A stretch of DNA of 64,000 bases from Diadema setosum. Its lineage: Eukaryota; Echinodermata; Echinoidea; Diadematoida; Diadematidae. The notes under the pieces were generated by a model. It had not been told where the DNA came from. It saw only the letters and a list, made by a program, of their open reading frames with translations, and made no database searches. How positions within the stretch are numbered: the first letter of the stretch is position 1; every line of letters begins with the position of its first letter. The stretch covers positions 4,225,113 through 4,289,112 of the forward strand of contig NC_092706.1 of NCBI RefSeq assembly GCF_964275005.1. The letters are read 5' to 3'. Both the position numbers and the translations under genes were made by a program. Positions 5,985 to 30,804 of the stretch are shown here, one piece after another.

Positions 5985-7331
5985 TACCTAATATGCATAT
6001 TGCTGAAATGAAGCCAAATATTTAATTCCCTGAAACTTTAGCCTCATTTCCTGCGCCTTTTCCTTGATGTGTGTCGTGTATCTGTACAAAGGCGTTAAAT
6101 TGCCGTTCTACTTATGACATTACGAAATATTTCATCTTGTTAAATTTACTTAATACCCCATGTCAACATGGCGAAATAAAGTGCTGACTTCACAGTAACT
6201 AATTAAAAAACAAAAAAACAAAAAACATTTGAACATTTTTCCCTGCTTTGATCTCATGATTTCCGCCGCCGGCAAGCCAGAGCTGCAAAACACAACGCAG
6301 TTTTTAAAAATTTTAAACAAATGTGCAAAAAAAAAAAATAAGAACAGTCTTAAATGAAGAAAATAGCATGCACAATTGTGGTATGCATCAGTATATCACG
6401 GTTCAGATATATTCATTGGCAAAATGTAGATACTTCTAGAGAAAAAGCTAGCTGTTTAGCTGATTGATTGTGATTTGTAATCTCATTTTCCATTTTTCCG
6501 CACATCTTTCCAGAGTAAAAAGAAACAGCAAAGGGGAGCGGACATGTGTGTCTCACTACTAGGCAAGGTCGTGTGAGCGATAGGGAGCGAGTCTGTAATT
6601 TCCAAGCAAAATATACACGAAATTAGTCATGATCTGACGTTTGCTGCTTCTCATCATTAGCTTTTATTCAAAGACTTTTCCGCATGAAAAGACGCATCAG
6701 CTATTAAGAACGGAATTAGGGAAACAGTTCATTTGTCATTGACGATGCATGATTATGCAATCATCATTTTCGAGACACCCTGTACCTGTATTATATTCAT
6801 TGAGATGCGCATAGTCAGATGGCGGCGGATCTCGTACTTCAAAGTGGTTGGATTCGTTGAAAGTCCATTCGTGAGTAGATCCATGGTTACAGCAAACCAT
6901 GAAGAGAATGATAATTGGAGAGTAATGTAAGTGGTTTCCTGTCAGCAGACATCCTACTAATTATACAATAAAGTACAATGTGTAGTTTCATTTTTGCATT
7001 GTCTGTTGATTGTAGCCCATCTTACCGGACATACTAGACTACAGGAAATCTTACCCTGAGTAGTTTGTGCATGACCTCTTGAATCTTTTGTTATTATACC
7101 TCACACTTAAAAAAGAACAAGCTCTTTGAAACCAATAATACTGAATGTTAAGTAGAGTACTCGAAAGGAACGTTTGATGAGTATTGTCTATGTTTAGCTA
7201 AAATGATGAAAAGATTCAAAACTGGCACGCGAATGTTCAAACTCTTAATTCAGACATCAGTTCGTGAAAAATGCGCCACTTGGAATTGTAACTCTTTCGA
7301 TGAAAACATGTCATCACCAAAGTTTCCCAAA
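5985..7331. other. Presumed upstream region of the Tie-like gene
   Basis: No coding exon is recognised. Promoter and 5' UTR should lie here or just before 7203, but no TATA box or other decisive core element stands out. Confidence 0.4.
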
Positions 7332-7401
7332 ATGCTGACGTTTGATAATGTTATCATTGCTTTTACGGTTTTTTGCTCTTCACTTTTTACGCCCATTCTC
7401 G
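7332..7401 (+). other. Signal-peptide exon of the Tie-like gene
   Basis: The ATG at 7332 opens a peptide with a short polar start, then the hydrophobic run VIIAFTVFCSSLF and a small-residue end before a GTAAGT donor at 7402. This is a standard secretory leader. It joins in phase 1 to the exon at 9180, giving a glycine at the junction. Upstream in-frame ATGs (7308 and 7203) would only add a basic N-terminal extension before the same hydrophobic core. Confidence 0.7.
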
Positions 7402-10400
7402 GTAAGTACATTCCTAATGGTTGAGAATTAAGAATACCATATTAAAAGAAGATCCTAAATATACACACATGTGTAAAGAACGTTTTTGATTGAATTAAAA
7501 AAAAATCGTCTTTTGATAACTTAGCGCAGGCAAAAGTTAAATTCAAATGTCTGCAAATTTCGTAAGAGATCGGGGTATCGACAACATGGAAAACAGAAAC
7601 TTTGGGATATTTTGAGAGGTACAATGTATTATGAATAAAAAATATAATTAAATAAGGTAATGGGGTGTAGTTGTCATTCGCCTATTCGTGTATTTTGTTT
7701 GCACATAGTTTGTTTGTATTGTATATCAATGTATTTTTATTATTATCATCAGTATCATCAGCATTATTGGTCTTTTTTTCTTTTCAAATGCCCATCCAAC
7801 AAAATAAAATGAAAAATTCTCTCGAGTTGCCTTTTTTTTCGAATAAGGAATTAAGAAAAGAAATTATAGATCATTATGAATCAGCAAAGCCATAATTGTT
7901 TTATAGCCTCTTATTATAATGTTTTAAATAACAGATATTGATAAAGGAATGTCGCATTCTACTCGATTTGCAATTTGATTTTAGGACAAAATACTCGATA
8001 ATGCATATCTTGCTTGTCTGTTTAGACAAAGTTGTGATGACTGAGCAAAATTCTTTTGCTCAGTCATCACAATCCATTTTTAGATTCCTTCTCATACGGC
8101 CATGATATCTTTATCTGTTGATTAGATAAGTGAGTATTGTATTGTCTTCAATCCGCTGTAGATATGAACGCTTTCTTTTTTATAATCATGATAAGGTCTT
8201 GTACATGTTTGTTTGCTTGGTGGCTTTTTAAAGGTTCATTGTTTGAAAAATTTGATGTGCACGCCAGTATAAAATACGAACACGAATTATTACCTTAGTT
8301 GTAATTATTGTTGTTGGCCAATATCTAAACGTTCTGATTACATATTACAGAAATAACTACAATGGTTACCGCCCGTTGACAGTGATATTAATAGTTTTCT
8401 AAAATGATGATCATGTGTGAACTATGTGATGGCTAGGTGCACGTTATTCTACATTAAGCAAAGGCCCGAATTCACGAAGGTGGTACAATCTTGTCCATGG
8501 TTTACACAATGGACAAAGACCGTAGTTTGTTTGTTTGTTTGTTTTTTCACCAAGTGTAACATGGCCTATTTCGTTACGAAATCAGTCATTTCATCGACGA
8601 AATGTTGTCATTTTGTTACGGAATGATCATTTCGTCGACGAAATGCTGTCACTTCCTTACGAAATGATCATTTCGTCGACGAAATGACTGATTTCGTAAC
8701 GAAATAGGCCATATGTGACACTTGGCGCCCCATAAAAAACTACGGTCTTTGTCCATGTTTTAAACCATAGACAAAGTTGTACCACCTTCGTGAATTTGGG
8801 CCATAGGGCCTACGATGGTCAAAAGAATTGGCATGTCTCATGGCTAAAACGTCTAGTCCATGAGAAAGGATTCGAACTCATTTCCTGAGAGTCCTGGTTA
8901 TCCAAGAGTCTGAAGCCTTGTCCAATTCACCATTGTTCACAGACCTCAATTACTTGTGAGAAAGCACAAGTGTATCTAATGGCACAATGCAACCATCTGC
9001 GCAAGTCTGTTGATAACAATTAGTTTCCTTTTTTCATTTTTATTGGCATCCATGCATAAGCTATTATGACGTATCAATATTGTGTATGCATATTAAGGTA
9101 CAATGTACTCGCATTTGTATACATAAACCATGCATTTCCAAGTAATAATGTCTGTATCAATCATCATCTTACTTTCCAGGTAATCAAGCTGCGATTACCG
9201 TTTTAGCAAGAGGGTTTTCTTCAGTCGAGATTGGTTCGCTTCCATACATGTACCGGTGCTACAAAAGCTTCCCCAGTCGAGGTGCCAAGCTAGAGTTTGG
9301 AATGATATCGTCTGTCCTGTCTAACAACCTTTCAGCTGCGCCTGTGACGTCCCTCCTTGTAGCCAGAGAGTTCTCGTCCTCATCCTTTCGGAATGTTAGT
9401 GGAGCATTCTACTGTCGCGCGGCTCCCGCTGACGAAAGTGACGTCACGACCGTGTACACGTCCTTCAGAAGAAGCGATGGTACTTATTCCCCGGGGTTAC
9501 TTCCCTCACTTTGTTCCCCTTCTGCCGCTCTCTCAAATACAACAAATGCCTTGCCCTTGTGCATAGTGAAATGATCATGGCGGTATAGCTCCTTATCCAC
9601 CACATTTCACCATGGATATCATCTAGTCGATTTCAGAAAGTTCAGTTCCTTTTCATTAAAAGGAGTTCGTTTCTTAAACGCATCAAATCAGAGAACCCAG
9701 GCTTGGTGCGTTATCTCTTTATTATGATCTTCTTAGTGCTTCATGAGGTAGTGTATAAGTTCTCTCATTTGAGCCCGTTGTCGTTCATACATAATCGTTT
9801 CCGAATTGTGAAAAGCATTTCGAATATGCAGACATATTATATATAACTTGATTTTATGATTATTTCATGAATATACGTAATATTTCGAAATCTAGGCCAA
9901 TGTATACAAATAGTGCATAAGTAGATTTGAATAGCTTTCATTAGCACGGCTAAAATACATTTCAAGACACTTCCGTTGACAATTTGTGTTACAGATCTTT
10001 TACGTTTAAACCACAAAAGAGTTTTCAACGCCATTCATTCTGCTTTATAGTCTTCTCCTACACTTTAAAAACATCGGTGTTAGATTTAACACCACGGGTG
10101 TTAAATCTATCACCGATCAAACTTCAATAAAGGACCACACCCACAGGTGTTAAAAATGCACTGTGATGGTGTTGAAAAGTGTTCACCTGACACTTCGTGG
10201 TGTTAATTTGACACTGTACCTGGTGTTATTTTGACACTGTACTGGTGTTGATTAAAAAATGACACCACATGGTGTTGATTTGATTTTTGTTGGTGTTAAT
10301 ATCAATGGTTTAACACCCGTCCAGCTTCAATAAGAGACCACACCAGCTGGTGTTACTTTGGTGTAAATTTATTTTCACATTTTTTTCAAAAATCTAGTAT

Positions 10401-12144
10401 TTTAATGTAAAATTCTTGATCGTCTTGTTTAAATTAAAAATCAACAAGAAGTGCAGTTACTAAGAAACTCTTCAAAAAACAGTTTAAAATTTGAAAATGA
10501 CACCCGGAGGTGTTAATTTCACACCATAAATGAGCACCGAAAATTTAACACCAGCTCGGTGTTCGCTATTTAACACCGCACTTTTTGCAGTGTACAGGCA
10601 CTGTTGTAACGTGTTAATGTCCAGTACATTTTGCATATTTATGTAATGTCTTGTAGCGGTCTGTGTGTTTGTGTTTGTGTTTTTCTGTTCTTTATCTAAA
10701 TTTTGTGTAGTTCATAAAGTGGAGATAATAATAAATTGCATTGTACGTGAGTCTCAGTCATGTCAGTTGAGGGACGACGAGCTACAAAGTATTTAGACAG
10801 ACTTATTTCGTTTATCCGCGGTTTTTCTTAAAAGCAAAATGTTGATGCAATATTTATAACTTGGCGGTGATCATTTGTATATAATGAATCGTTGTCCTTC
10901 CGTGACGACACGCACTGTTGACGCCACCGAAACTTAAACAATTGATGATGTTTGAACATATTGTCCGATTTTCCTCAAATTATTTCACTAACGAGGGTCT
11001 ACTGATATTCCTGCATTCACTGAATGAATATTATATTCATGATGATATAGCAATATTTGGATTTCATCCCCTTTATCTATATGAAACCTATAAAACATTA
11101 TTTTATATTAGTATAATTGTATCTATATAAAAACCTATCAAACATCATCGTAAATGAGTATCCTGCGTGCCGAAATGAATATGGGCCTAGTATACGACAG
11201 CATTTCCGTCATTCAAAGATTTTTTTTTCCTTTTAAAATAGTTATCAACTGGAACTTTGTCGCTCAGATTTAGAGCGATCATTTCAAGGTCTTCAAATGA
11301 AAACAAGACCTACACCAGTTTAAAGCCCAATATTTCCAAACTGTTGACGTGACATAAAAACGAGAAAACTATAGAAAATGTTACATGAACTGGATTTTCT
11401 ATATTTCAGTGTCCTAATTTCTACTGACCTCCATGTAATTCTAATATTCTTACAACAGCTTTCTTCAACTCTAGAGATGGACGTGTCACTCGTACGGTCA
11501 ACATCGGAGACACGGGAGTGACCATCGAGATGGTAGAATCGATAGAATGTCCGAAAAACTTGATTACTTGGAGAAAGGATGGCAGTTTGCTGACGACAGC
11601 ACTCAACACTGCAGTTCTCTTTCCAAAGCCAGTTGTTCCAGCAGACGAGTGTTTATACGAAATCAACTGTGAAGATCCTCGGAAGAGGGGCAGAGGAACA
11701 TTTTACAGGCTCATTGTCCGAGGTATTTGTCTCGTCCCCCATATTCAGGGTACTAATTTGTTGTATCGATGTAGCCTTACATCGTAAGGATGTACAGTGC
11801 ACTCCCGTTATAACGAACACGGTTACGACGAAATTCGGTTACCACGAAGTCAAAATTCAGTTATCCGCTCTATGTTTTTTAATTGTGTATTTGTTCGGTT
11901 TTAACGAAATTTCGATAATATAACAAACGAAAACTGCCGATCCCGAGGACTTTGTTATAACGGGAGTCCACAGTACGAGGTGTACACCCCAGATATAGTC
12001 CTACTGTTACAGAACATAATTCCGAAGTTTCGTTAATCCGAAAATAAACGAATCTTGTTTTTCCAAAGTTTCGTTAATCGGAAAATGAGAGTTAAACAGA
12101 AAACGAAATAAGGGTCGTAATTCCGAAGGCTCTTTAGAACGCAA

Positions 12145-12175
<31 letters not shown>

Positions 12176-13680
12176 TTGATAAATGAAGGTCTTAATAAGT
12201 TCGTACTAAACAGTCAGACCGCAGCACGTATGCTAATGAGCCGATCCGGCAAGATTTATTCAGCACTCTCGTTGACGATCTTTGCGTTCAAAAGGTGTCT
12301 CGTCGTGCGAGATTTTGCGAGAGTTTGACAGGACTATGGTTTTCACAGTGTAGCGACCTGTACATACATTCGTCATGGCTACAAGTCGCGATAAATTGTT
12401 CTGCAGACTTTGATCTTTATTTTCGTACTAAATTTGCGTATAACATCGGATCTTATCATGACGATATAATCAGCTGAATTTGCGTGAATTTTACCTGCTT
12501 GTCATGGAAGATTTGTCGTCTAAAGTTCTTTTTTGGTTCCTGACCGGTTTAAGAAACTGTTGTTTCTGACTTTGGCTTTTTCGTAGAGAGGAAACTTAGA
12601 TACTCATCATAAAAAACATTGGAGTCAAGGAGATGCAAACATGATTTATACTAGTTTTTCTGTTTTGAAATGTCTGTATGAAATTCACTCCTAAGCCGGA
12701 ATTATGCTCCACACAAAGTGTACAGTGGCGCGAAAGAGCTCTCTCATTGGACAGTGCTTGCATCCAGCACTTGAACTTGGCTTGAACTACACGCGTGCCA
12801 AGAAACCGCAAGTGGCATCAGACCGTTATGTAGCAGCGTAATGACGTAATGCAAGCGCTGAATGCAAGCGCTGTCCAATGACATAACTTACTCTTGAGAT
12901 TGCACGGTTTCAAGCTAATCAGCACTGACATCGATGTATGTTTTACTGGTTCCTGACCGGTTTAAGCAACAAATTGTCAAGATATTTACATGGATAGAAA
13001 GATTAAGAGATAGACTACCAAATAATGCATTTTCATTGAGATGCAAAATGAATTTAGTATTCTTTTGACGTCTTGAACGTGTACTGCACGAATTACTTTT
13101 TTCATCATTTTTCAAGCTCAAATTACGCTATGATATTTTTCATTTACAATAATTTGAGTAACACGTGACGATAGTTTACATATTTTCCTTGAATTTGATA
13201 CCAAATTTGTGAATATAAGGTGTATTTTTGTTGCCGAAAGCCAAAGGACAAAATCCCCTTACTCAGCTCATTAGTATGCAAGCCTCGAGCGGGGCTTGCA
13301 TACGAGTTGAATAAATACGAGCGAATTATCGGGTGCTGCGGTCTGACTGTAAAAAACAGTGTTATGCGTAAGGATTTTACGTCGTTGTGTTATTTACAAA
13401 CTTCAACAGTGTGAAATAACATGGAAGTAAAGTGTTTCTGACATTGAATCTGAAGACGCTCTGTGGCTATCCACGACTCAAACTCTTTTGTATTTCCCTT
13501 CTTTCATTTTTTGAGGTTTATTTTTCATCTGCATTTCCAGACATTCAACAGATTTCTGTTAAACTCGATATTGAAAACAGCATGTGAAATTGCAACATTA
13601 CCTTTATATTTGTGGAAATATTTGTCGTTGGGGGAGGAATCACACGATTTAGAATGGCAAAAGTCACTAGAAAGAATGTT

Positions 13681-13745
<65 letters not shown>

Positions 13746-14188
13746 TGTCAGAATTTTAGAATACGCTCTATGTTTATGCATGAAAGTAGGCCCTATATAT
13801 AATATACATAATATGCGTTCATTTCAACTTAGGCAAAAAGACAGACAAACAGACAGTGATGGACAGACAGACAGACAGACAGGGAGATATGCAGGTACAT
13901 GTTTTTACTAGCAAAGATAGACCCCCTATATGTTTCATACTCGTAGATTGCCCTGCCGGTAAATGGGGCCCACCCCTCTGTCATGGAGTCTGCGATAAAT
14001 GCTACAACGGAGGAATATGTGACGACAAGTCTGGTCATTGTGTGTGCCCGAACTCTTTCCTGGGACCCAATTGCCTATACAGTAAGTGCTTTTGATATTG
14101 TCTTGCATTAAAAGAAAATAGTCCTAGCTCCAGAAAAATAAATAAGTAAATAAATGAATGAATAAAAAAAGGAATCAATGAATGAAAG

Positions 14189-14277
<89 letters not shown>

Positions 14278-14949
14278 CAATCAATCAATAAAATAGAATG
14301 AAAAATAGTGCTCAGTGAAATCTGCCCTTATTTTCTATTGCTGTGCGCCATTGCAGATGTACTTGAAATCTGCCCGTTGAGGTTGACACCTGCGATTCTT
14401 TTGTTTCCTCTACTCCCCCCCCCCCCCCCCCCGCCACCACACGCGCACAGACACTTTATTTACAGGGATGGTAAGGTGAGGATTCTGCTTGTACCTTTTT
14501 GCGAGATACTTAAAAACCACTTTATGAATGTTAAAGGGCATACAATTTTAACTAAAGGATAAACAGAATAGATGTCAGGTGTCGGAATTTTAGATTCACT
14601 ACACTCGATCGCACTTAACCGTATTGTGAAATAACGACGAGTTGACAAATCACAGAAAAGAAATAATTCATGGGTCTTCAAAGGGGCTCTTAGGTCAAAT
14701 CAAACCAAATCAAAGCATTTCCGTGAAAAATGGGATTCTATACGAGAACGCTCAAGATTGAAGAGGGCGTCCTGACTTGAGAATATAAGTGTGCAGTAAA
14801 AAGTAATGCTCTGAAACAGACAAAAAAAGCTGCTGACTCGATTATGAAGGACAGTTTGTTAACACATTATGTCGATCATTGAGGAACTTCAAAGCGGACA
14901 AGATTTGAACAACTTAAAGAGAGAGAGAGGAATACGGGAATGTAGCTAT

Positions 14950-14981
<32 letters not shown>

Positions 14982-14983
14982 GG

Positions 14984-15015
<32 letters not shown>

Positions 15016-17244
15016 ATTTGCCACTGCTTTCTGATTTGAAACAAAATATTGTCTGCCGCATCTCCTCCTGATATGATTCATACTCTTTTTTTCAGTCTGC
15101 AGATCTGGAAATCGCTTTGGGGCAAGGTGCGAGTTTAAATGTGATGACAACAGCTGTAGTGGACAGCTTTTTTGCCTTCCAGACCCTTATGGATGCACTT
15201 GCCACCATGGAGGTCATGGTCCGCATTGCAGAACTCGTGAGTAATGCCCCTATGTAATATTTTATGAAGCATCTCCTATAGCTTTCGTTGCAATTGTATG
15301 ACAGGTGGAACCGCATGCTCAATCTTCTCTCTCGTTTGTTTGTTTGCTTGTTGTTGTTTTTTAAACTCTCGTTTTGGGGGTCACCCCACGAGACCGACAC
15401 CCACGAGTCATACGGCCCACGAGTTCGACACTAGGCAAAAACGACCCGCGAGTTCGACATTACATCACAGGACTTAATGTGTCGGTCTCCTGGGCCTTAT
15501 TCGTTTAGTGTCGAACTCATGGGCTATATGACTCATGGGCTGTATAACTCATAGGCTGTATGACACGTGGGCTGTATGACTCATGGGCTGTATGGCTCCA
15601 GGGCTGTTTGAATCGTGGGTGTTGAACTCGTGACGTGCACCCGTTTTCTTTTTATCTCTCTTTTCATATGTTATCTTACTTTTTCACCATGTTTTATATT
15701 CTTGCTGCACAGGTGTATCTTAAGAATACATATTGTACCTTGTCTGCTTGCCGTGAAGAATAGCTCCAGGTCATCGTCATACATGTGATCTTCGATTTTT
15801 AAATGCATAATATACATTCTCTGGTACATCCACAGCATGTCCTCCGGGCACGTACGGTCCAGGATGCTCCCAAACGTGCCACTGCCAGTCGGGGACTTGC
15901 AGCCGTAATTTTGGGGTGTGTAGGGGCGAGAATACTGACTGTAAGGCGGGATGGACCGGCGACAATTGTCAGAGTGAGTGTTTGTGAATATTTTAACTTA
16001 TATATAAAGCTCTCCCTAATTTCCATTGAAGTCATCTTTCTGTATATAGAATGATTTTTTTTTTATTTGATTTAGCTGTGACTTCGTCACATTACACATC
16101 ATTTCTAAACGCTAAATGTAGGCCTTCTCGATCATGATGATTGTTGCAATAATGTTCAATGTTCGCTTGCACCATGTGCTAAGTTTATATACAAACGATA
16201 AATATATACAGAAATACGTGGATAAGTGAATAAAAGAATGAACAAAAACAGTGGATTAGACATAAACTGATATTGGACTATACTGAAGAAATAATTGCAT
16301 TATATAGCTTTTGCACCAAAGACAACACTAAATGTCTTCGTGTGTCTGTAAAGACGGAGACACCCCTTCCACATAGATATTAGGCCTGCAATGTAGTTGA
16401 CAGATTGGAGACGCTAAGTATAACCTATATCCAGTGGATTTTATGCAATTTCTCTTTCTAATCTGTTTAATATTATTATGTAATTGTATGTCATTGATCA
16501 ATCTATACACTCGTGACGCACAACAGTAACTTATTCATAATAACTCACCATGAGTTATTGCATTGTTTAGAATGCATGTTTACTATATTTCCTAGCAACA
16601 TGATTTGAAATGGCACTAGCATTAATGCAGGCATTGTATAAACCCTTGTATGGTAAAATCATCAGATACAAGATAATTTGGGGGGATTTTAGTTTTTGTT
16701 TAGTTAAGTTGTTTTGTTTGTTTGTTTGTTTGTTTGTTTGTTTGTTTGTTTGTTTTGGGGGTAGTCTCTTTTAAAGCATTAAAATATGTCTGTCCGTTTC
16801 CATCTTCTTACAGTCCCAGACGTGTGTGACAAAGGATACTACGGACCTCAGTGTACCAACAAGTGTATTTGTTTGAACGGCACACCTTGCAACAAGACAA
16901 CGGGGGAGTGCATTTTTGATCAAGGTTGATTTATCCTTACAAACATGCAGTATCCACGGTACTGTTCCATTCACTGACTAGTAAACAAATTCTGATTCTT
17001 GTATTCCTGTTTACAATGTATTCACACAATACATTCTGAAAAATGATCTATATATGCGATGAACATTTTTGGTATCTTTCTTAAACCTAGCTCTAACCTA
17101 AGAAAAAAGGACTCCAGGAGAATGTGCAAAAATGTTCTTCAAATTGTAGAAACATTGTTGCTAAACGGTAGGCCTATCAATCGACTCAACGTGTGGTGAC
17201 AAAGCACCTCTGTCTGCCTGCCTGTCTATCTGTCTCTCTCTGTC

Positions 17245-17278
<34 letters not shown>

Positions 17279-20200
17279 GTAGAATGCTGTGTGAGTTTGT
17301 ATGTATGTATTTATTTATGTATACAAGTTTGTGTGTTCTAACACATTCGCACATTTTTATTTCATTATAGTTATTTCACAACGCAAAGACTATTCACAGT
17401 GCGCCGGTGTGAATAGTACTTCTTCTACCACGACAGTCGGAGTACAGCATTGGGATCAAGGTAAAGAAATCTGATTTTTGACTATAAGTGGCGCCATAAT
17501 TTTATGGTGAGCACCACATAGCTTTAAACTATCTGTGTATAGACCCTGTAATATTTGGCAGTTTCACTTTTTTTTACGGAATAGTGAATTGATCCACTGT
17601 GTGAATGAACGGTGGGTAATTACTCATCTCTCGGCACTCGCCAGTGTGGCCGCTGTTCAAATACTGCGCTTTGTTGCAGTGTGAATGTTGAACGTATACC
17701 GTGTGAAAGGCCCATATCAAAATTTCTTAGTAACATTAAAGGTCCAGTTTACCTTTGGGAGCAGTGATTTCAAAAATGTTCAAGATATCACATTTGATGC
17801 ATATGTGTAGGTCTGTTGTATCATAAAACATCCTACCATATGAAATATTTGCAATAAAACCTAAAATATAAGGAGATATCAGGGTTTTTCTCAGTAAACC
17901 GTAACTGTATACGGTTTAGTCTGGAAACATTTTTATTATAACTATTGTTCACATTTTGTGTATTTAACAACACTTAACATCGATTATACGGATTCAAATT
18001 TTGACAGTGGTTGTTTCTATCCCTAACTCACATTTTAGAACTATTTTAAAGCACTAATGCTTTCATCTGCAAATGGTAAATTATGCCTTTAACATCGCCA
18101 AGCGGTTACGTATCAATCGACTATTGGGTGACTTAGCACCTCTCACTGACTCTGTGCATCTTTCGCTTGTAGAATTGTGTATGTATGTTTGTATGTGAAT
18201 ATACATTTATGTATACATAATACACGTAATATGTGTGTTATGATATAGTTAGATTCGTATACATTCATTCCCCTACATGTCACAACGCATTTAAAGACCA
18301 TGAGTCACAGTCCACCGGTGTGAATGGTACTTCTCCCAACACTACAGTCGGAGCACAGCATTGGGATCAAGGTAAAGCTATCTGATGTTTGACCGCTACA
18401 TGCGGCGCCCTATAGTGGTGAGCACTGCCATGGCCACAGAACTCTAGAGTTCTGTGGCTATGACCGCATGGCTTTACGCTAAGACGCTGGGCATTCGATA
18501 TTAGTGAATGGTGAATTGTTCCACTGTGTACTCTTGTAGTTTGAATTATAGTTATACCGTAAAAGGTAAATGACTTCAAATTTCAGCAACATTATTGCCA
18601 AACGTTATTGAGTCACTCAACTATTAGGGTGACAAGGTCCCCTCCCCCTTCCTTTTTGTCTGTCCGTCTGTCTCTTCTCGGAGAATTTTGTATGTTTGTT
18701 TGTTTGTATATACAGTATGTATTAAAAAAGGATATCCTGGCCTGTTACTTCGACTACTTTCATTGACAGATCACATCCATTCAGTAAGACATTCATTGTT
18801 CCTTCACGATAACACTAAAACCTGAAAAAAAGTGCAAGTTGTCATTAAAAACATAATTTACCATTTGCACATGAAACAAAAACCCAGCAGTATAGTGTTT
18901 CAAAATAGTTTTTAAATATGTGAGTAAGGGATAGAAACAACCAATGTAAAAATTTGAATCAGTATAATCAATGTTAGGTATTGTTAAATATACAAAATGT
19001 GAGCAATAGTTATAATAAGAATGTTTCCGGACTAAACCGTCTACAGTAATGGTTTATTGAGAAAAGCCCTGAAATCTCTTTACATTTTAGGCTTATTGCG
19101 AAAATTGCATATGGTAGGATGTTTTGTGATACAGCTGACGTACACATATGCATCAAACGTGATACCTTGAACATTTTTAAAATCACTTTTCCCAAAGGTA
19201 AACAGGACCTTTAAAGTTCATGTGCTCAGTCATGCATGCCATTTGTCAACATAATTAGGTACCAATGGAAAGAAGAAGAGTTCCCCTTTCCTCACATCCA
19301 ACATTGCGCTCTCCATAGCTGACGATTACGAAATAGTAGCCATCCAACGTTGGATTACCCTTTTTTTTTTGATACACACTGTATAGGTGTTTATTATGCG
19401 TGCCATACAGTACTGGTGCCATATATTCATATGATATTTCCCTACATTATTCCACAACGCAAAGACCATGATTCACAGCACGCCGGTGTGAATGGTACTT
19501 CTTCCAACACGACAGTCGCAGCACAGCACTGGGATCAAGGTAAAGCTATTTGAATTTTTACCCTTGCGACGCCATATATTATTATGGTAAGCCCTGTATG
19601 GCTTTACACCAATGCCAAATTGAATGCAGGGTAGTTTGGCAAAATACTCGATACTAGTACTCGGCGCTCGGCACTCGCTATCGCCAGTGTGCCACTGTCC
19701 GGCTATTGCGCAGTGTTTAGTGTGAATGGTGAAGTGATACTTTGTGAATGGTGGATAATTTCACTGTGTGAAGTATGCTCAATGCAACTAGTGAAAGTGG
19801 GGCACATAGGCTATGTAGCTTGAGAGCAGTGACATTGTCTCAGACCTCCCAACCATACTGAATTTGGAGGAAAGAATTTTAATTTTGGCCATTTCCAGCT
19901 CTTGTTTCAACAGGAGTTTCCTATTTTTCTGGATAATTTTACTACACGCTCCTATGGTAACTTCTCTTTCTTTCCTACTTTTGAGCCAAATCATCCCTAT
20001 TTTCAGTCATAAAGGTTGGGAGGTCTGCTGTCTTGGAATTGTGTGAATGATGAAATGCGATTGTGTGAACTGGTATCATTCACACTAAACGTTGGCACTG
20101 TGCTCATGATGGTGCATGTAAATGGTATATATATAGGCATGAGAACATGTTATTGTGTAAGGAAGTGAAAGCACAGGTGTGCGAATCTGTGGCAGTATCA

Positions 20201-20810
20201 CTTTGTGAAGGGGGAACGATGCAGCTGTGTCAGTCTTAACGAACCAGCCGAATAAAATCACGCAGGTTGTTTGATATTTCATGCCAGAAATTTCCTACGA
20301 TGAAAAAAAAAATGTGTCATAATCAAAAGAATACGGGGAGGAAGTGAAGTTTGAGGGGCATGTAGTCCTACTGCTGGCCGATTATTAATGAAAATTGCTT
20401 CCGTAATTCTTTTGGTCTAGACCTGGCCTACATAATAATATTGTGTGCTGCATGAAAGAAATATTCAATGTTTTATCATTCGTGCGACGTTTCGAATTTT
20501 ACATTCGGAGCAAGTTTAACTGTTCTATTGACGCGAAGCGGAGTTGAATAGAACGGTTAACTTGCACCGAATGTAATGTTTGGAACCATCGCACTCACAA
20601 ACATTGAATGTTTGTATACTATAATAATGTTTAGAGTTAGATGCTTAAGTGTTTATATTGTGCGCTCTTCTTACTCTGGCTTACAGGAGATATGTGGTTG
20701 CACCTCTGCTATGGCATCAGTTTGGCCATTTCTGTCATTGGAAATCTTGTGGCCATGACTTGTGCATGGTAAGTTAACAATGAAACAATATTATATAATA
20801 TATATGTATG

Positions 20811-20877
<67 letters not shown>

Positions 20878-21577
20878 GTATAGTGCGAGAGATTGTTCCT
20901 TCCCAAACGTACGCAGTGCCTATTTATTGTGGGTAGCACATAGTGAAAGAAATTATCCAGATGAAGGCCCGATGACAGGCCGAAAGCTCGATTAAATGGG
21001 AGAACAAGAGAGCAACGTCCGCCTCAAGTCCATAATTTCTTTCACTATGGGTATTAAGAGACTTCTTCAGTCCAAATAAAGATACGGCTTACGGTCTTAA
21101 CATGGGAGAGTCTGTTGGTCCCAATAACAATATATGTGTTCGTATATTAAGTGAACATGCACCCATAAGTAATAGTGATTAGGATGGTCTTATCGTCTTG
21201 TAATCTATTCTTTCGTTCTTTGTGTTATTTTTCCTTCCTCGCTATACAATCTGGCGGGACACACATACCTCACGTGGTCATCGTTCGTTCTGGAAACACA
21301 ACAAAACGAAACAAAATATCGCCGTAGTTATAAGAGAAAAGTCAGGGAATCGGACAACGGTGCGATTAATCTGAAAGTGATATCGAGTCGAGATGTGGAC
21401 ACTGCTGCTGGCCTCTACGAAATATCCAATGTTCCTCCTGATCTTAAAGTGATATCGAGTGGAGATGTGGGCAGTACTTGGAGCCTCTACGAAATACCCA
21501 ATTTCCCCCCTAATGAAGATGCGCAGGTTATTTACCAAAACGTCTGCGCTGCATCGCGCTCCAAGCATGATCAGTGA
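7332..21577 (+). CDS. Tie-like Ig/EGF transmembrane receptor lacking a kinase (12 coding exons)
   Basis: Exons: 7332-7401, 9180-9479, 11459-11722, 13947-14081, 15096-15236, 15836-15973, 16814-16924, 17371-17460, 18297-18371, 19465-19539, 20687-20768, 21328-21577. All junctions are AG/GT and stay in frame; every intron is phase 1 except the last (phase 2). They give 576 residues: signal peptide (1-24), Ig-like unit 1 (24-123), Ig-like unit 2 (124-211, ending FYRLIVRG as Tie2 has FTRLIVRR), EGF-like units (212-256, 257-303, 304-349, 350-386), stalk (387-466), membrane segment (about 469-492) and tail (493-576). EGF 2 contains FCLPDPYGCTC, nearly identical to Tie2 FCLPDPYGCSC, and EGF 1 has KWGP as in Tie2. 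Known Tie receptors continue with Ig3, three FN3 domains and a tyrosine kinase; none is encoded here before the stop and AATAAA. I infer a receptor, co-receptor or decoy at the cell surface. In-frame ATGs at 7203 and 7308 are alternative starts. Homology to Tie is firm; ligand and function are unknown. Confidence 0.85.
8463..8802. mobile_element. Foldback element with TTTCGTCGACGAAA palindromes
   Basis: Outer arms are GGCCCGAATTCACGAAGGTG and CACCTTCGTGAATTTGGGCC. Inside, TTTCGTTACGAAATCAGTCA and its complement enclose repeated CGAAATGATCATTTCGTCGA units, so the whole element can form one long hairpin. It lies in intron 1 of the Tie-like gene. Confidence 0.7.
8856..8940 (-). pseudogene. tRNA-Leu-like sequence
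   Basis: The minus strand reads CAATGGTGAATTGGACAAGG then CTTCAGACTC and ends GAGTTCGAATCCTTTCTCAT. This resembles the A box, anticodon arm and B box of a type II (Leu-like) tRNA, but the acceptor stem does not close. It is a decayed tRNA or a SINE head. Confidence 0.35.
9180..11722 (+). other. Two Ig-like exons of the Tie-like gene
   Basis: Exon 9180-9479 (100 codons) has the Ig cysteine pair in YRCYKSF and GAFYCRA; the second compares with Tie2 GAYFCEG. Exon 11459-11722 (88 codons) carries NIGDTGVTIEMVES and ITWRKDGSLL, which align with Tie2 DKGDNVNISFKKV and AVIYKNGSFI. It ends with the conserved RLIVR just before the EGF block. Both exons are symmetric phase 1. The 1.98 kb intron between them holds a hairpin-rich inverted-repeat element (10061-10592). 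Confidence 0.75.
10061..10592. mobile_element. Inverted-repeat element rich in GGTGTTAA/TTAACACC
   Basis: It begins CACTTTAAAAACATCGGTGT and ends ACACCGCACTTTTTGCAGTG, flanked by TA. Between the ends, GGTGTTAA and TTAACACC recur in both orientations, giving many nested hairpins. It sits in the intron between the two Ig exons. Confidence 0.6.
11795..11973. mobile_element. Pogo-type MITE, CTCCCGTTATAACG ends
   Basis: Ends are CAGTGCACTCCCGTTATAAC and GTTATAACGGGAGTCCACAG, with TA on each side. A related copy lies at 24097-24289. CAGT termini and a TA target fit pogo/Tigger-like elements. Confidence 0.6.
13684..13741. repeat. (TA)n microsatellite
   Basis: Pure TA run upstream of the EGF 1 exon of the Tie-like gene. 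Similar runs occur at 2155-2217, 20814-20873 and 24997-25041. Confidence 0.95.
14190..14288. repeat. (AATC)n microsatellite
   Basis: About twenty AATC units in the intron after EGF exon 1. Confidence 0.95.
14949..15015. repeat. (TG)n microsatellite
   Basis: TG run with two interruptions, ending 80 bases before the EGF 2 exon. Confidence 0.9.
15376..15642. mobile_element. Foldback repeat with CACGAGTCATACGGCC units, copy 1
   Basis: The left arm reads GGGGGTCACCCCACGAGACC, the right arm TCGAACTCGTGACGTGCACC. The right half repeats TCATGGGCTGTATGAC-like ~15-base units six times. Copies also occur at 23212-23816 and 31079-31365. Confidence 0.6.
17216..17279. repeat. (TC)n microsatellite
   Basis: TGTC/TCTC run upstream of stalk exon A. 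Confidence 0.85.
17371..17460 (+). other. Stalk exon copy A (tandemly duplicated exon)
   Basis: Phase 1-1 exon of 30 codons, read after TTCATTATAG. It encodes a short Ser/Thr-rich peptide with GVNSTSSTTTVGV and HWDQG and ends at GTAAAG. It has one N-glycosylation sequon (NST). An internal AAAG acceptor matching that of copies B and C lies at 17387 and would give a 25-codon version. It is the first of three copies of the same exon. Confidence 0.7.
17736..18092 (+). mobile_element. MITE with TTAAAGGTCC ends, copy 1
   Basis: Ends are TTAAAGGTCCAGTTTACC and GGTAAATTATGCCTTTAA. It lies in the intron between stalk exons A and B. Other copies: 18845-19214 (inverted) and 28101-28290. Confidence 0.65.
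18297..18371 (+). other. Stalk exon copy B (tandemly duplicated exon)
   Basis: Phase 1-1 exon of 25 codons from the TTAAAG acceptor to the GTAAAG donor. It encodes DHESQSTGVNGTSPNTTVGA followed by QHWDQG, with sequons NGT and NTT. Exon and flanking intron match copies A and C, so it arose by tandem duplication of a genomic segment. Its reading frame is open, which suggests it is still used. Confidence 0.65.
18845..19214 (-). mobile_element. MITE with TTAAAGGTCC ends, copy 2 (inverted)
   Basis: Aligns with 17736-18092 in reverse orientation and lies between stalk exons B and C. Its opposite orientation shows a separate insertion rather than co-duplication with the exons. Confidence 0.65.
19465..19539 (+). 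other. Stalk exon copy C (tandemly duplicated exon)
   Basis: Phase 1-1 exon of 25 codons from the CGCAAAG acceptor to the GTAAAG donor. It encodes DHDSQHAGVNGTSSNTTVAA followed by QHWDQG, with two N-glycosylation sequons. Because all three copies are symmetric in phase, any number can be skipped or included without shifting the frame into the membrane exon at 20687. Confidence 0.65.
19841..20027. mobile_element. MITE with CAGACCTCCCAACC ends, copy 1
   Basis: Ends are CAGACCTCCCAACCATACTG and GGTTGGGAGGTCTG. A second copy lies at 52469-52657. Confidence 0.6.
20460..20617. repeat. Short foldback repeat
   Basis: ATATTCAATGTTT and AACATTGAATGTTTGT, with TTTTACATTCGG and CCGAATGTAATG inside them, form an imperfect hairpin around TCTATTGACGCGAAGCGGAG, just before the membrane exon. 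Confidence 0.5.
20687..20768 (+). other. Membrane-spanning exon of the Tie-like gene
   Basis: After CTTACAG the exon encodes WLHLCYGISLAISVIGNLVA then MTCA, an uncharged run long enough for one membrane helix, and ends in phase 2 at GTAAGT. The next exon starts with YKRKVRE, a basic stop-transfer sequence. This fixes the topology: N-terminus outside, C-terminus in the cytosol. Confidence 0.75.
20814..20873. repeat. (TA)n microsatellite
   Basis: TA run in the last intron of the Tie-like gene, just before the hammerhead-like motif. Confidence 0.9.
20939..21049 (+). ncRNA. Hammerhead-ribozyme-like motif (tentative)
   Basis: A perfect 18-base inverted repeat (20939-20956 with 21032-21049) encloses CAGATGA, a GGCC-CGATGACA-GGCC hairpin and GAAA, and ends with GTC just before the second arm. 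This is the order of a type I hammerhead (stem I, CUGAUGA, stem II, GAAA, stem III, NUH, stem I). One core base differs (CAGATGA), and stem III does not close next to GTC. It may be a decayed retroelement-borne ribozyme or a chance look-alike. Confidence 0.3.
21328..21577 (+). other. Cytoplasmic-tail exon with duplicated tyrosine motifs
   Basis: Read from the CGCCGTAG acceptor, the exon completes a cysteine codon and then runs YKRKVRE to the TGA at 21575-21577. It contains two copies of a module: KVISSRDVDTAAGLYEISN and KVISSGDVGSTWSLYEIPN. VIYQNV follows near the C-terminus. YEIP fits the Crk/Nck-type pYxxP motif. YQNV fits the Grb2 pYxN motif and, with V at -2, the ITIM pattern. No kinase domain is present. 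The acceptor lacks a good pyrimidine tract, so the exon start is less certain than its frame. Confidence 0.65.
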
Positions 21578-22020: not shown

Positions 22021-22026
22021 AATAAA
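22021..22026 (+). terminator. Polyadenylation signal of the Tie-like gene
   Basis: An AATAAA hexamer lies about 445 bases after the stop codon, with no other good signal in between. It would close the 3' UTR of the receptor gene. Confidence 0.5.
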
Positions 22027-25669: not shown

Positions 25670-27840
25670 CTACATTCGCAGGAATTTTCCGGAGCAGAAA
25701 TTAAACTTCTGATCCGGTGACATGCTGAGAAAGCGCTGTTGACTCATCAGTGAGATGAGATAAGGTCGGACTCTTCGGAGGTGAATTGGACGGCCTAGAA
25801 TTCTCTCACACGTCACTCGCAGCATGTTAAAGAACGAGCCGTGATCTTGATCTATCGGGCCACGCTCGCGAGAAGGATTCGACAGGACGTCGTAGAGAGG
25901 TCCGGCAGACCGCTGCGGGGCGACGAGCGGAACATCCACACGGCGCCACTGGGTGCTCGGTCTGACGGGGACGCGTCGTGGGCTCGAAGTCGATGGTTCT
26001 GCCGTTGTTGCTGACGACGATGCCGACTTGTTGCAGAATTTCGGCGGTGTGAAGATGGACATATCCTTGATGCCCTGGGAGAGGTCGAAAAATCGAGTGC
26101 TGACTGACTGTACCATCTCGAGGGTCTCGTCGTCTCGCTCCATGAAAGTCTCCGTGACTGGCCAGCAACCAACGTCAGTAAACGTACCAATCCATGTCTC
26201 CTCTGAAGAGGGATAAAAACGTTGTAATTACTTTATGGTGCATATTATTTCTTGTTTAGACTTCATATCAATTTTATGACATACCATTAAAAGAAAACTT
26301 GTGTTGAACACTAAACGTTTTTAAACTCTTCTCCTCACCTTGTTTTTATCTTTCTTTCTGTTGGATTTTTTTTTCAACAAGTATAAACTTTTCACTCTTC
26401 TAATTCACAACATTACAGTTTCGTTTTTGAGTTTCGATTACTCAAAAAAAAATTGCTAATTTATTGGAAAAAGAAGTAGTCCCTCAAACTAACCAAGTAA
26501 TTATCCAATCAGACAATCGGTCGATTACCCGGAATGTCTCTCTATCTCGCAGTCAACTGCAAATTTTAGCTGCTATTTTATATCAATCTGCCAATTCATT
26601 GATCATTACATAGTCAATCGGTCAAACCAAAATACATCTGTGGTCATGTCGGGAAATCTGTCAATCAACCGACCAATCAACCAATTAATCACGAAATCAA
26701 TCTATCAAATCAACCAATCAATTTATCTATCAAACAAACACTCAATTATCAATCAATTATTCATCCAGTCAACCAATCAATCAATCAAACAAATAATCAA
26801 TAATTTAATCAATCAATCAATCGACCAACCAATCAATCGCGCAACCGATCAATCGATCAATCCATCATTCATTCAACCGGTCAACTACTAGTAATTAATC
26901 AATCAATCAAACTTACTGCGTCGTCCCGGGATCCTGTCGGACCACTCCTGCACCATGAAGCCACTACCAGGAGCTCCGACCTCGTAGCGGTCTTCCAGCG
27001 TTGCGTTGGGAGGAATCGTGTGATTGCGCCATGTGCCCAGAGGCTCAACGTGACAAGTGTTGTAATTACGGTTGATCACATACTGAATACCGTCATCGAA
27101 GAGCTGAATGTACTCGTAGATCCTGTAACGGAGATAGAGAAAGATAAGATACGACTTATTACAATAGTTCTTCGATATTGAGGATTTTTCGCTTCTAGAA
27201 ACATCAGTTTAAAGGAGTAAATCAGATTTGTAATGTTTCAGATGGCGACTCGTGTTCGTGACTACTGAATCTCATGCTACCGCGAATCAGGTTTTTTTTT
27301 TTTTTGTGGCAAGTAGAGTTAACTTTGGAGAATTATTCATCAGTTCACGTTTCTTTCAAGAATGTTTGCAAAATGTCAGGTTTATAGCTTAAGAATCTTT
27401 GGGAGAAATTGGTAATGAACACAGCAACAATCACTGCTAAAAGAATTCGGAAGTGTTTATCAATAATTATATAAGAGGGAATAAATTGCCTAAAGATTTA
27501 GCATATCCTATCATCTTTAGCTGAATCATGAAGAGTCTAACTTCAGAAAGGAAGGAAATATTGTAAGAATGCCAAAACAATATCACAGACACACAGGTGA
27601 CCAAAGGAATTAGTCAATGTTTGAGAACAGGAATAATTGTAATCTGTATTGCCAGTATATCGTATCTGTTGGTTGGCAATATTATTCTATATTGACAAAA
27701 ATTGCTTCTGTGAATATACATTTACGATATTTCTTAAGCTACACCCGTCTATCTCCATAATCTTGGTGGTATAGCTTTAACACAACAACCACTACACAGG
27801 AACCTTGGCAGGCAAAACAGAGAAGTGTGCGCCCTGTGAA

Positions 27841-27882
<42 letters not shown>

Positions 27883-30723
27883 CAGATCTTCTTATGCCAA
27901 AATATTTTCATACCTGGCTGGGATTCAAGCAATCTTTCCCATCGTCATGCACATTATGCGAATCTATGAGTATCCCAGGGGTGATGTGTCCTTAAGCTGT
28001 TTTTATTCCAAAAATGCTAACACCAACAGCGTCATAATTGATGATCCAGATGATAATGGCCTTCTTTAACCTTCCACCTCCTACCACTTACTGGTGACAG
28101 TTAAAGGTCCGGTCTACCTTCCTGGGAGCAGTGATTTCAAAAATGTTCAAGGTATCACATTTGATGCATAATAATTATGTGTAGGTCTGTTGTATCACAA
28201 AACATCCTACCATATAAAAATTTCGCAATAATTTTCAAGCACTACTGCTGGGTTTTTGTTTCATCTGCAAATGGTAAATTATGCCTTTAAATGAACACAC
28301 GAAAAAAACAAAAACAAAAGCAAAGCAATAGATAACTATGTCGAGGGCAACATGACTTCCTCTTTCTTTCCTCTTCGTCTCAAACAAAAGGAAATCACGG
28401 TGATCTGTAATCTCTCTACCAAAACATTTTATAGCTTGCGTGTTTGTCTTTCGTGGACGCTGAATGCCACGGGAAATCGGCCTGACCTTAATCGATCCTG
28501 CAGCGAGTTCGCTTTCTGTAATCTTAAGGACATCACTTTTAGATAACTACAGTTGTTCATGCCAGCAAATCATGGAGAATATGCTAAAGTGTTACTAGTA
28601 TTATGAAGATAATATACAAATAATGCACATTGCAGTGGGCGGTAATAGGAATTATCCACCCGATAGTAACTTTGGAACCAAGCGTGAAACTACGAGGCAA
28701 GGCCGGAATATAATTATGTTTTGAACTGTTCCAATGTTACATAGGGTGGATAATTTTCCGACCTAGAAATGTGTATCCTTGTTTACAAAGAAATGGCATG
28801 GATCCTTATTACTAGATTTAAACTTCATATTATGCCCATGCTTTGTGCTGTACAGAAATTCCCAGGCCAGCAGCACCAGTTCTATTCGAAGCTATAAGAC
28901 AAAGTGTAAGAAATAATTCGACCGCGGAACCGCACACAATGTACTATACAATATGTGAAATAGGCCATGCAGCTAGCCCAGCGGAGACGATCGTTACCCT
29001 GAAAATTAACGGGTAATGAGACAACTCGACTAGAGATAGTTTCGGCCGAAAAAAAAAAGGAATTTTCCCCCATATATCGTCCATATTTGACACTTCGTGA
29101 GCCAATTCTGTAGAGTGGACATGGCTTTTGTATAGATTTACGGCAAGTCATGGAATGAACAAGGATTATTTTGAGCAATAACATCTCCGAGCGGTCGCTG
29201 GGCATGTTAGGCAAAATGAAAGACTTGTTACGTGACTGCTCTCGGCCAATCAATATTGGTTAGATTCCATATATCACCATTTAACGCGTATAATAAACCA
29301 CGCACTTATATTAGTTCAGAAGATAATATCGAATGCGTTTCTGTCTAAAAACACAAAACGAACTGTTTTGAGAGTTGTCTTAAAGACAGAAGATTCAATC
29401 TTCTGAGTAAAATACTCAAATTGTGTGTGTGTGTGTGTGTGTATGTGTGTGACATATGAGTACGGGAAAACCCGATATCTGTCCAGAAACAAAATATTTC
29501 ATCTGATTTGTTGACAAAACTTCAGTCATCTATATAATATTGTTCAAGACATAGGAGGGATATGGTAGAATTTATAGCTCTCACATACCAACACCCTGTG
29601 CTTTTTGAACAATGTTGAAGGCATGGAAACTGAGAGGAATCCACTTTCTATACGTCCTGATAAGAACTGGTGAGGATAAAGAGGGGCTGAAACTCCTATT
29701 GAAGGAGATTATATAACTTCTACAGAGTTATAACCTCTGAAATAAACATAATATCCCCCTCGTATGCAATTTTACACAAAATAACACACACAATACACTG
29801 CATACATCACACACACACACACATACACTTTTAGGCTTACATGACATATTTTAGGCTATAACATTTACGTATCCAACATTTGCAAATCATGAACAGCAGG
29901 GGCGGATCCAGGAATTCCGTAAAGAGGGGCGCGTTTACAAAATTAAAGGGGGGCGCACGCACCTCTCCCCCATTTTTTTCTATTTATTTCTTTTGTTTCA
30001 ACAAAAAATAAAGGGGGGGGGGCGTGCGCCGGTTGCGGTCCTCCCTGGATCCGCCCCTGAACAGTCATTATCATATCATATCTCTCGTTTCCAATATACA
30101 CTGTTTCCCTAATTGGTACAATAAGTGGCTGTTTCAAATCAAATATGGAGAGTGGGATATATCCATACTGTTTTGTTTAATTTGTGATATTGGGAATTCG
30201 CACCCAGTGAAAAGAGTTGTAAATGAGTTACGCGCCGTAACCCAGATCCATTCAATGATTTAAAACGTACTCGAAGACAATAATTATAGGCCTACCTTTT
30301 TCCAGGCAACTGAGCGCGTTTGTCTTCTCTGATGTGTTTGCGGCGGTTGATGCCGTCGAAGCTGATGTTGAAGCGGTCGTTGTTCCCCTGAAGGTGATCC
30401 CACTCACTCGCTCGCCCCTCCCACTGGGCTACGGTCTGACATTGTGCTGTGGGTCCCGAAGCCGTGGGCGTCGACGCCGCTTCCACGCCACCGGCGCCAA
30501 CTTGGTCTTCCACCCCGTTTCCACGGACGGCAGGTTCTTTCGGGAACAGTCCCGATGGGATTTCCACGGGAACTGGTCTGCTTCTCTCATGCGGGAGTAT
30601 TCCTCGATAGCTGGTTGCCAACCTCACCCTTCCCAGAGCTTTTCCTACATCAATTCTGGCGCAGGCAACGGCTGCAAGCCCCAGAAAGAGGACAAGAACC
30701 GCAGGCGACGAGAAGCGCGACAT
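25670..30723 (-). CDS. Ependymin-related secreted protein with C-terminal extension
   Basis: Three exons on the minus strand: 30723-30296, 27122-26917 and 26202-25670 (join phases 2 and 1), giving 388 residues. A signal peptide (MSRFSSPAVLVLFLGLAAVA) is followed by a Pro/Gly-rich linker, then the ependymin domain (about 95-268) with QWEGRASEW, NISFDGINRR, IYEYIQLFDDG, VQEWSDR and STRFFDLSQGIKD. The four family cysteines are present (near 95, 165, 224 and 268), as are N-glycosylation sites NIS, NHT and NAT. Ependymin-related proteins are secreted or lysosomal lipid- and calcium-binding glycoproteins of about 200-220 residues. This one has ~70 extra residues before the domain and 120 after it. 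The extension starts Ser/Thr-rich and ends hydrophobic and basic (RPYLISLMSQQRFLSMS) with two cysteines. The start ATG has A at -3. Family assignment is firm; the exact role is not known. Confidence 0.85.
26650..26910. repeat. Degenerate (CAAT)n tract
   Basis: About 260 bases of imperfect CAAT/CAAC/AATC units in intron 2 of the ependymin-related gene. It runs up to the splice donor at 26916-26911. Confidence 0.85.
27839..27882. repeat. (CA)n microsatellite
   Basis: CA run with a CGCG interruption in intron 1 of the ependymin-related gene. Confidence 0.9.
28101..28290 (+). mobile_element. MITE with TTAAAGGTCC ends, copy 3 (internally deleted)
   Basis: Both ends are intact, but about 170 central bases are missing relative to the other copies. 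It lies in intron 1 of the ependymin-related gene. Confidence 0.6.
29897..30059. mobile_element. MITE with CAGGGGCGGATCC ends, copy 1
   Basis: Ends are CAGGGGCGGATCCAGGAATT and CCTGGATCCGCCCCTG, flanked on both sides by AACAG, a 5-base target duplication. It lies in intron 1 of the ependymin-related gene. Confidence 0.7.
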
Positions 30724-30790
30724 GTTTTCAGACCTACTGTCGAACTCGAGATAGGCTGAAATGACGACTCGAATGCAGTGTTTGTGTGAA

Positions 30791-30804
30791 CTCTTATATT
30801 AGAA
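30791..30804 (-). promoter_or_regulatory. TATA-like box upstream of the ependymin-related gene
   Basis: On the minus strand the sequence reads TAATATAAGAG, about 70 bases before the ATG at 30723. A start of transcription some 30 bases downstream would leave a short 5' UTR. The placement suits a TATA promoter; there is no other support. Confidence 0.35.

Follow-up and report, generated by a model that had tools for sequence, protein, structure and literature searches.

INTRODUCTION

Tie receptors are kinases governing vessel stability. The full layout of vertebrate Tie1 and Tie2 (TEK) comprises Ig and EGF domains, three FN3 domains and a kinase. Here we describe a gene of the sea urchin Diadema setosum that combines a Tie-type head with a short, kinase-less tail. 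It lies on the forward strand at 7308-21577 of the window, by which we mean the whole 64,000-nucleotide stretch that was analysed (C24:4225113-4289112; contig NC_092706.1), and there are strong indications from its sequence that it belongs to a subfamily of kinase-less, Tie-related receptors. The bindin core, a sequence that marks echinoids and asteroids, has a match of 91% over 32 residues in this genome, in line with an echinoderm source.

Other members of the echinoderm Tie family are on record. SpTie1/2 of Strongylocentrotus purpuratus is found in coelomocytes and the axial organ (PMC12113024, PMC6494969), and a Tie-2-like receptor has been seen in coelomocytes of the starfish Asterias rubens (PMC13409769); unlike the window protein, these are termed receptor tyrosine kinases in the available text of the papers. 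SpTie-like genes of the purple sea urchin are also mentioned, with no layout stated in the available text of PMC6494969. The initial annotation of this locus knew of no described receptor with its design. We likewise came upon no account of a Tie relative lacking a kinase in the open-licence PubMed Central papers among the matches listed.

RESULTS

Gene structure and relation to Tie2

Twelve exons with AG acceptors and GT donors join in a single frame and would encode 578 amino acids, the junctions being placed from sequence. The predicted protein begins with a signal peptide, followed by a pair of Ig-type units, four EGF units, a stalk built of repeats, a single membrane helix and a tail; each of exons 2-10 is symmetric (phase 1-1). 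This is the layout that had been annotated: all 12 exons have GT-AG borders, the frame closes with a TGA that ends at 21577, and a polyadenylation-type hexamer, AATAAA, follows at 22021-22026 (+). The annotated start, 7332, is the second in-frame methionine (Met9); the first in-frame ATG lies at 7308, and 7332 is kept as an alternative start.

The tie to Tie2 comes from the region spanning Ig2 and the first three EGF units. Ig2 is encoded by exon 3 (11459-11722; phase 1-1), which ends in RLIVR as in Tie2, and EGF1, EGF2 and EGF3 by exons 4 (13947-14081), 5 (15096-15236) and 6 (15836-15973), all three within the Tie2 match. When the EGF block was compared with the PDB, human Tie2 was the best match (E=6.1e-23), the next non-Tie chain reaching only E=0.0041. 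With Ig2 added to the query the Tie2 match improved to E=2.6e-27, the alignment running through the junction RLIVR-C-A-KWGP, and a profile of Ig2 plus EGF1 built from six loci aligned with residues 106-229 of the Tie2 chain (E=2.5e-17). The FCLPDPYGCTC of exon 5 falls opposite the FCLPDPYGCSC of PDB Tie2, so the resemblance pointed out in the initial annotation holds at the aligned position. Receptors of the SCARF/MEGF type, which carry EGF arrays without a Tie-type Ig head, were considered and ruled out by the Ig2-Tie2 alignment together with the rank of Tie2 among PDB matches.

The remainder of the head departs from Tie2 or is less easily placed. Exon 7 (16814-16924) encodes a fourth EGF unit, compared with the three covered by the PDB Tie2 match, and has paralogous exons at three other loci. 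Exon 2 (9180-9479; phase 1-1), which is 76-82% identical to its three paralogs, probably encodes an Ig-type unit as well, judging from its position and from a cysteine pair (C25/C77 of the aligned unit) that is invariant in 6/6 sequences. A profile of this exon found no significant match in the PDB, its sole match being an antigen-binding fragment (Fab) at E=0.5. AlphaFold predictions for the lone exons without an alignment gave mean predicted local distance difference test scores of 50.8 (Ig2) and 35.3 (Ig1), and these results were left unused. Pfam applied to 487 residues of the window protein (tail left out) returned a sub-threshold EGF_2 alone.

At the two ends of the gene, exon 1 (7308-7401) encodes the putative signal peptide (MSSPKFPKMLTFDNVIIAFTVFCSSLFTPIL), with an open frame, a hydrophobic peak and the donor GTAAGT, and exon 12 (21328-21577) a cytoplasmic tail of 82-83 residues with tyrosines in YKRK, YEIS, YEIP and YQNV. 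Between head and membrane, exon 8 (17389-17460) encodes a Ser/Thr-rich stalk repeat with an N-glycosylation sequon, and exons 9 (18297-18371) and 10 (19465-19539) are tandem duplications of it, the three copies sharing 81-90% DNA identity. For exon 8, at least, an alternative acceptor is present; we chose the one ending in cgcaaag because the aaag acceptor is common to the stalk exons of two paralogs. The single membrane helix in exon 11 (20687-20768) has the top 19-residue hydropathy, starting from residue 478, and paralogous transmembrane exons exist at three loci.

Four genes with the same layout

We searched the genome (912.7 Mb, 102 contigs) with the Ig1 and Ig2 exons together and obtained 36 matches, with 54/54 candidates scored. 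Three paralogous loci, at C13:35.02, C13:35.04 and C19:30.58 Mb (C13b1, C13b2 and C19), were 76-83% identical to the query, and matches beyond the four loci showed at most 50% identity. Each paralog repeats the order Ig1-Ig2-EGF1-4-transmembrane-tail, so the membrane and tail exons do join the EGF exons as first annotated. By eye the splice sites are nearly equal throughout; in C13b1 the donor of EGF4 appears shifted, and in C13b2 the acceptor of EGF2. The transmembrane exons of the paralogs are homologous to that of the window gene (61-69%), as are the short tails. Stalk copies number three in the window gene, one at C19 and one, shortened, at C13b2, differences that reflect exon duplication, and no stalk exon was found at C13b1. 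The four genes form a branch split from two other Tie-like genes (C3 and C13a, see below) and from Tie2 with a support of 100, the order within the four being unresolved.

Pairwise ratios of nonsynonymous to synonymous substitution (dN/dS) were 0.29-0.38 for the 6 pairs, computed over Ig1, Ig2, EGF1-4, transmembrane and tail exons with the signal peptide and stalk excluded. By part, values were 0.15-0.24 for the EGF exons, 0.29-0.40 for the Ig exons and 0.46-1.20 for the tail alone, where one pair exceeded 1. Purifying selection thus acts on the exons in this comparison, with the head clearly constrained and the tail loosely so. As the three paralogs have its exon order, nearly identical splice sites and a homologous short tail, and as selection is purifying, the window gene is neither a lone oddity nor a cut-off kinase gene.

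Tie-type heads extend well beyond this branch. The EGF block gave 150 matches genome-wide (150/273 candidates scored; rows on C24 with E > 1e-4 were excluded from the paralog exon comparison). Among the matches listed are 34 EGF1-type exons including that of the window (C1 6, C3 1, C13 25, C19 1, C24 1), counted by hand as those with a query start of 1-2 and an end of 43-53; these are exons rather than proven genes, and the weaker ones are 50-60% identical. Tie-type Ig-EGF-FN3 ectodomain exons are clustered at C1:48.40-49.06 Mb and in many places on C13.

Two extra copies of the transmembrane exon, 63-68% identical to that of the window, occur at C6:9924279-9924362 and C6:9988599-9988688 (−). 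Neither a tail nor an EGF exon is visible within 2 kb around the first of them, which is followed by what looks by eye like a coding fragment of a long interspersed nuclear element (LINE); no EGF-block or Ig1/Ig2 match on C6 was among the matches listed.

Ig3, FN3 and kinase exons

Other Tie-like genes of this genome share the Ig1-Ig2-EGF head and differ in what follows it. In the C3 gene (C3:39.08-39.10 Mb) the EGF exons give way to an exon resembling Ig3, which stays below the Pfam cut-off (Ig_3, E=0.061), and then to three FN3 units (Pfam E=2.1e-7, 7.2e-10 and 4.2e-9). C13a (C13:0.83-0.85 Mb), which contains an N block at ~827.5-832.5 kb, shows matches to the Ig3-like exon and to two stretches of FN3, with a third FN3 recognised by eye. 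These two genes were partly read, and those of the C1 and C13 clusters are represented by matches. The Ig3-FN3 block of C3 gave 86 matches (114/135 candidates scored), which are confined to C1, C3 and C13 and include no hit at the four loci.

Kinase searches gave a similar picture. At the four loci, no match was listed for a kinase profile (153 matches, 145/683 candidates scored) or for a TEK kinase query (98 matches, 150/216 candidates scored), and the closest kinase match listed on C24 is ~1.5 Mb from the window gene. Exact copies of the codon pattern for HRDLAARN number 23 (0 for the reversed-pattern control), and 37 sites have at most 1 mismatch (control, 1); 0/37 of these sites fall at the four loci. 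A single site, C13:6597007, has a Tie-type EGF, Ig1/Ig2 or Ig3/FN3 match within 100 kb.

That site belongs to the one recognisable Tie kinase among the matches listed, at C13:6.594-6.598 Mb. Four exons joined from C13:6594501-6597700 matched the Tie2 kinase in the PDB at E=2.6e-54, the next chain, a non-Tie one, scoring 2.9e-37; farther downstream, a last kinase exon and PYVNLDKLEND can be read by eye. The same strand carries, 38 kb upstream, a Tie-type EGF2 exon that is 49% identical to window EGF2; we infer that it and the kinase are parts of one gene. This gene would thus share with the window gene a Tie-type EGF exon and differ in its Tie2-like kinase. Three further sequences limit the statement that there is one kinase. 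A fragment resembling a kinase, at C13:10159546, lies ~46 kb downstream of FN3-type exons and shares their strand. A second such fragment, at C13:6460247, was found by the kinase profile and not the TEK query, and lies ~89 kb downstream of FN3-type exons that stand at C13:6549203. The third sequence, C13:18437359, is a single-exon kinase ~242 kb beyond another set of FN3-type exons. Tie-like heads seem to be many and the Tie kinase apparently one, the FN3-type genes being known here from their ectodomain exons.

The initial annotation thus correctly saw a Tie relative without kinase or FN3 domains, and a separate Tie kinase does exist elsewhere in the genome. It had overlooked the absence of Ig3, which becomes apparent from the two FN3-type genes, in which EGF exons lead to an Ig3-like exon and then to FN3. 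Where it allowed that the kinase was lost or never present, loss of Ig3, FN3 and kinase fits better because other Tie-like genes here retain Ig3 and FN3. Compared with vertebrate Tie1/Tie2, the window protein shares the Ig2-EGF1-3 head, the junction RLIVR-C-A-KWGP and the FCLPDPYGC motif (all as seen in Tie2), lacks Ig3, FN3 and kinase, and has a fourth EGF and a short tail. Very probably it is a real single-pass receptor from within the Tie family that kept the Ig1-Ig2-EGF head and carries a short tail in place of the lost parts.

Tail motifs

The motif YxN is a docking site for Grb2-type SH2 domains, and the C-terminal tail of Tie2 carries such a site, YVN; the PYVNLDKLEND read downstream of the D. 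setosum Tie kinase exons contains YVN too. YxN is present in 4/4 tails of the branch, as YQNV (window), YENV, YENA and YINI. Of 20,000 shuffled tail sets, 15 reached YxN in 4/4, a control that ignores the common descent of the four tails and hence overstates the case. Each tail also has an earlier YEI, YEV or YKV site, with two copies in the window tail.

Within the window tail (21328-21577), a unit of the form LKVISS..YEI..PP is internally duplicated; it is single in the three paralogs. Receptors with an immunoreceptor tyrosine-based inhibitory motif (ITIM) conserve [SIVL]xYxx[ILV] in the tail. This assignment was rejected, the motif being found in 1/4 tails, that of the window (VIYQNV), with a pattern that also allowed T.

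Other features of the window

The opposite strand contains an Ependymin-family exon (25673-26227, −; Pfam E=2.6e-11) and a signal-peptide-like frame without a Pfam match (30295-30798, −) that may belong to it, as well as EF-hand exons including the EFHB C-terminal EF-hand domain (59536-61411, −; E=1.6e-16). A single frame of 700 residues with C2H2 zinc fingers lies at 43849-45948 (+; Pfam E=3.6e-19).

DISCUSSION

What might a Tie head without a kinase do? Our first choice, which we rate as about evenly balanced between right and wrong, is that the protein acts as an adaptor or co-receptor and is itself phosphorylated in trans. The ligand would be soluble, either angiopoietin-like or another protein with a fibrinogen domain, and would be bound by the head alone or together with the Tie kinase receptor in a mixed complex. 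Because a kinase-less protein cannot phosphorylate itself, the tail tyrosines would be phosphorylated in trans by the Tie kinase receptor or a Src-type kinase, and phosphorylated YxN could then recruit a Grb2-type SH2 adaptor. We favour this scheme because YxN is kept in all four tails. The idea, already present in the initial annotation, that the tyrosine motifs are used for signalling gains some support from that retention and loses some from the rapid evolution of the tail.

Several observations weigh against it. The tail is weakly constrained, to the point that one pair has dN/dS above 1, and the shuffling control flatters the case for YxN. In C13b2 an in-frame stop comes directly after YENA, and a spare copy of EGF4 has lost a Cys; no start codon was located for the signal exon of C13b1, and that of C19 lies beyond the stretch examined. 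Nor does the genome point to a particular ligand: it holds 111 Fibrinogen_C exon matches (120/120 candidates scored), many candidates with none singled out.

The same contrast between a strongly conserved head and a drifting tail is what one would expect of a ligand decoy or dominant-negative partner, in which a membrane-held head captures the ligands of Tie, or forms a silent pair with the Tie kinase receptor, and the tail serves for anchoring or sorting alone. The lack of a kinase at the four loci among the matches listed suits this role as well. Retention of YxN in every tail and the doubling of one tyrosine unit in the window copy speak against it, and we regard it as unlikely, if still the leading competitor.

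Less probable again is a receptor for adhesion or recognition that has given up Tie ligands; it might, for example, serve coelomocytes as an immune receptor for lectins with a fibrinogen domain, its head having been multiplied for diversity. The 34 EGF1-type exons, many of them clustered on C1 and C13, and the wealth of Fibrinogen_C exons would fit, and raised levels of SpTie and SpTie-like transcripts are reported, in the available text of PMC6494969, for the coelomocytes and the axial organ of the sea urchin. Against this reading, diversifying selection is not apparent in the Ig exons of the four genes taken whole (dN/dS 0.29-0.40).

The small lesions of C13b2 raise the thought of a decaying duplicate, a pseudogene; the window exons are all open, their splice sites all intact and the overall dN/dS 0.29-0.38, which makes this very improbable. 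Long introns, and junctions placed from sequence alone, leave a sliver of probability, smaller still, that the exons splice on to more distant FN3 and kinase exons of a full Tie kinase gene, against which stand the stop and AATAAA after the tail, a homologous tail at four loci, the ~1.5 Mb to the closest listed kinase match on C24 and the lack, among the candidates scored, of an Ig3/FN3 match on that contig. An artefactual chain of exons was rejected, given the recurrence of the exon order at three other loci, the purifying selection and the Ig2-EGF match to Tie2.

In the wider proposal, echinoderms would have made of the Tie ectodomain a large and mostly kinase-less receptor family, with 34 EGF1-type exons to one recognisable Tie kinase here; the four-gene branch would have been reduced to adaptor receptors whose conserved YxN tail lets them use another protein's kinase in trans. 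We offer this tentatively, thinking it somewhat more apt to fail than to hold. If it is true, angiopoietin-Tie signalling in these animals would be a system of many receptors and one kinase, possibly at work in coelomocyte immunity. Dozens of Tie-type heads alongside apparently one Tie kinase would provide a natural test of what such a head can do free of a kinase, be it ligand capture, co-receptor action or trans-phosphorylation, and the branch of four genes, being small and distinct, lends itself to knockdown tests in a laboratory echinoderm. A genome of this kind would also bear on how Tie signalling worked outside the blood vessels of vertebrates.

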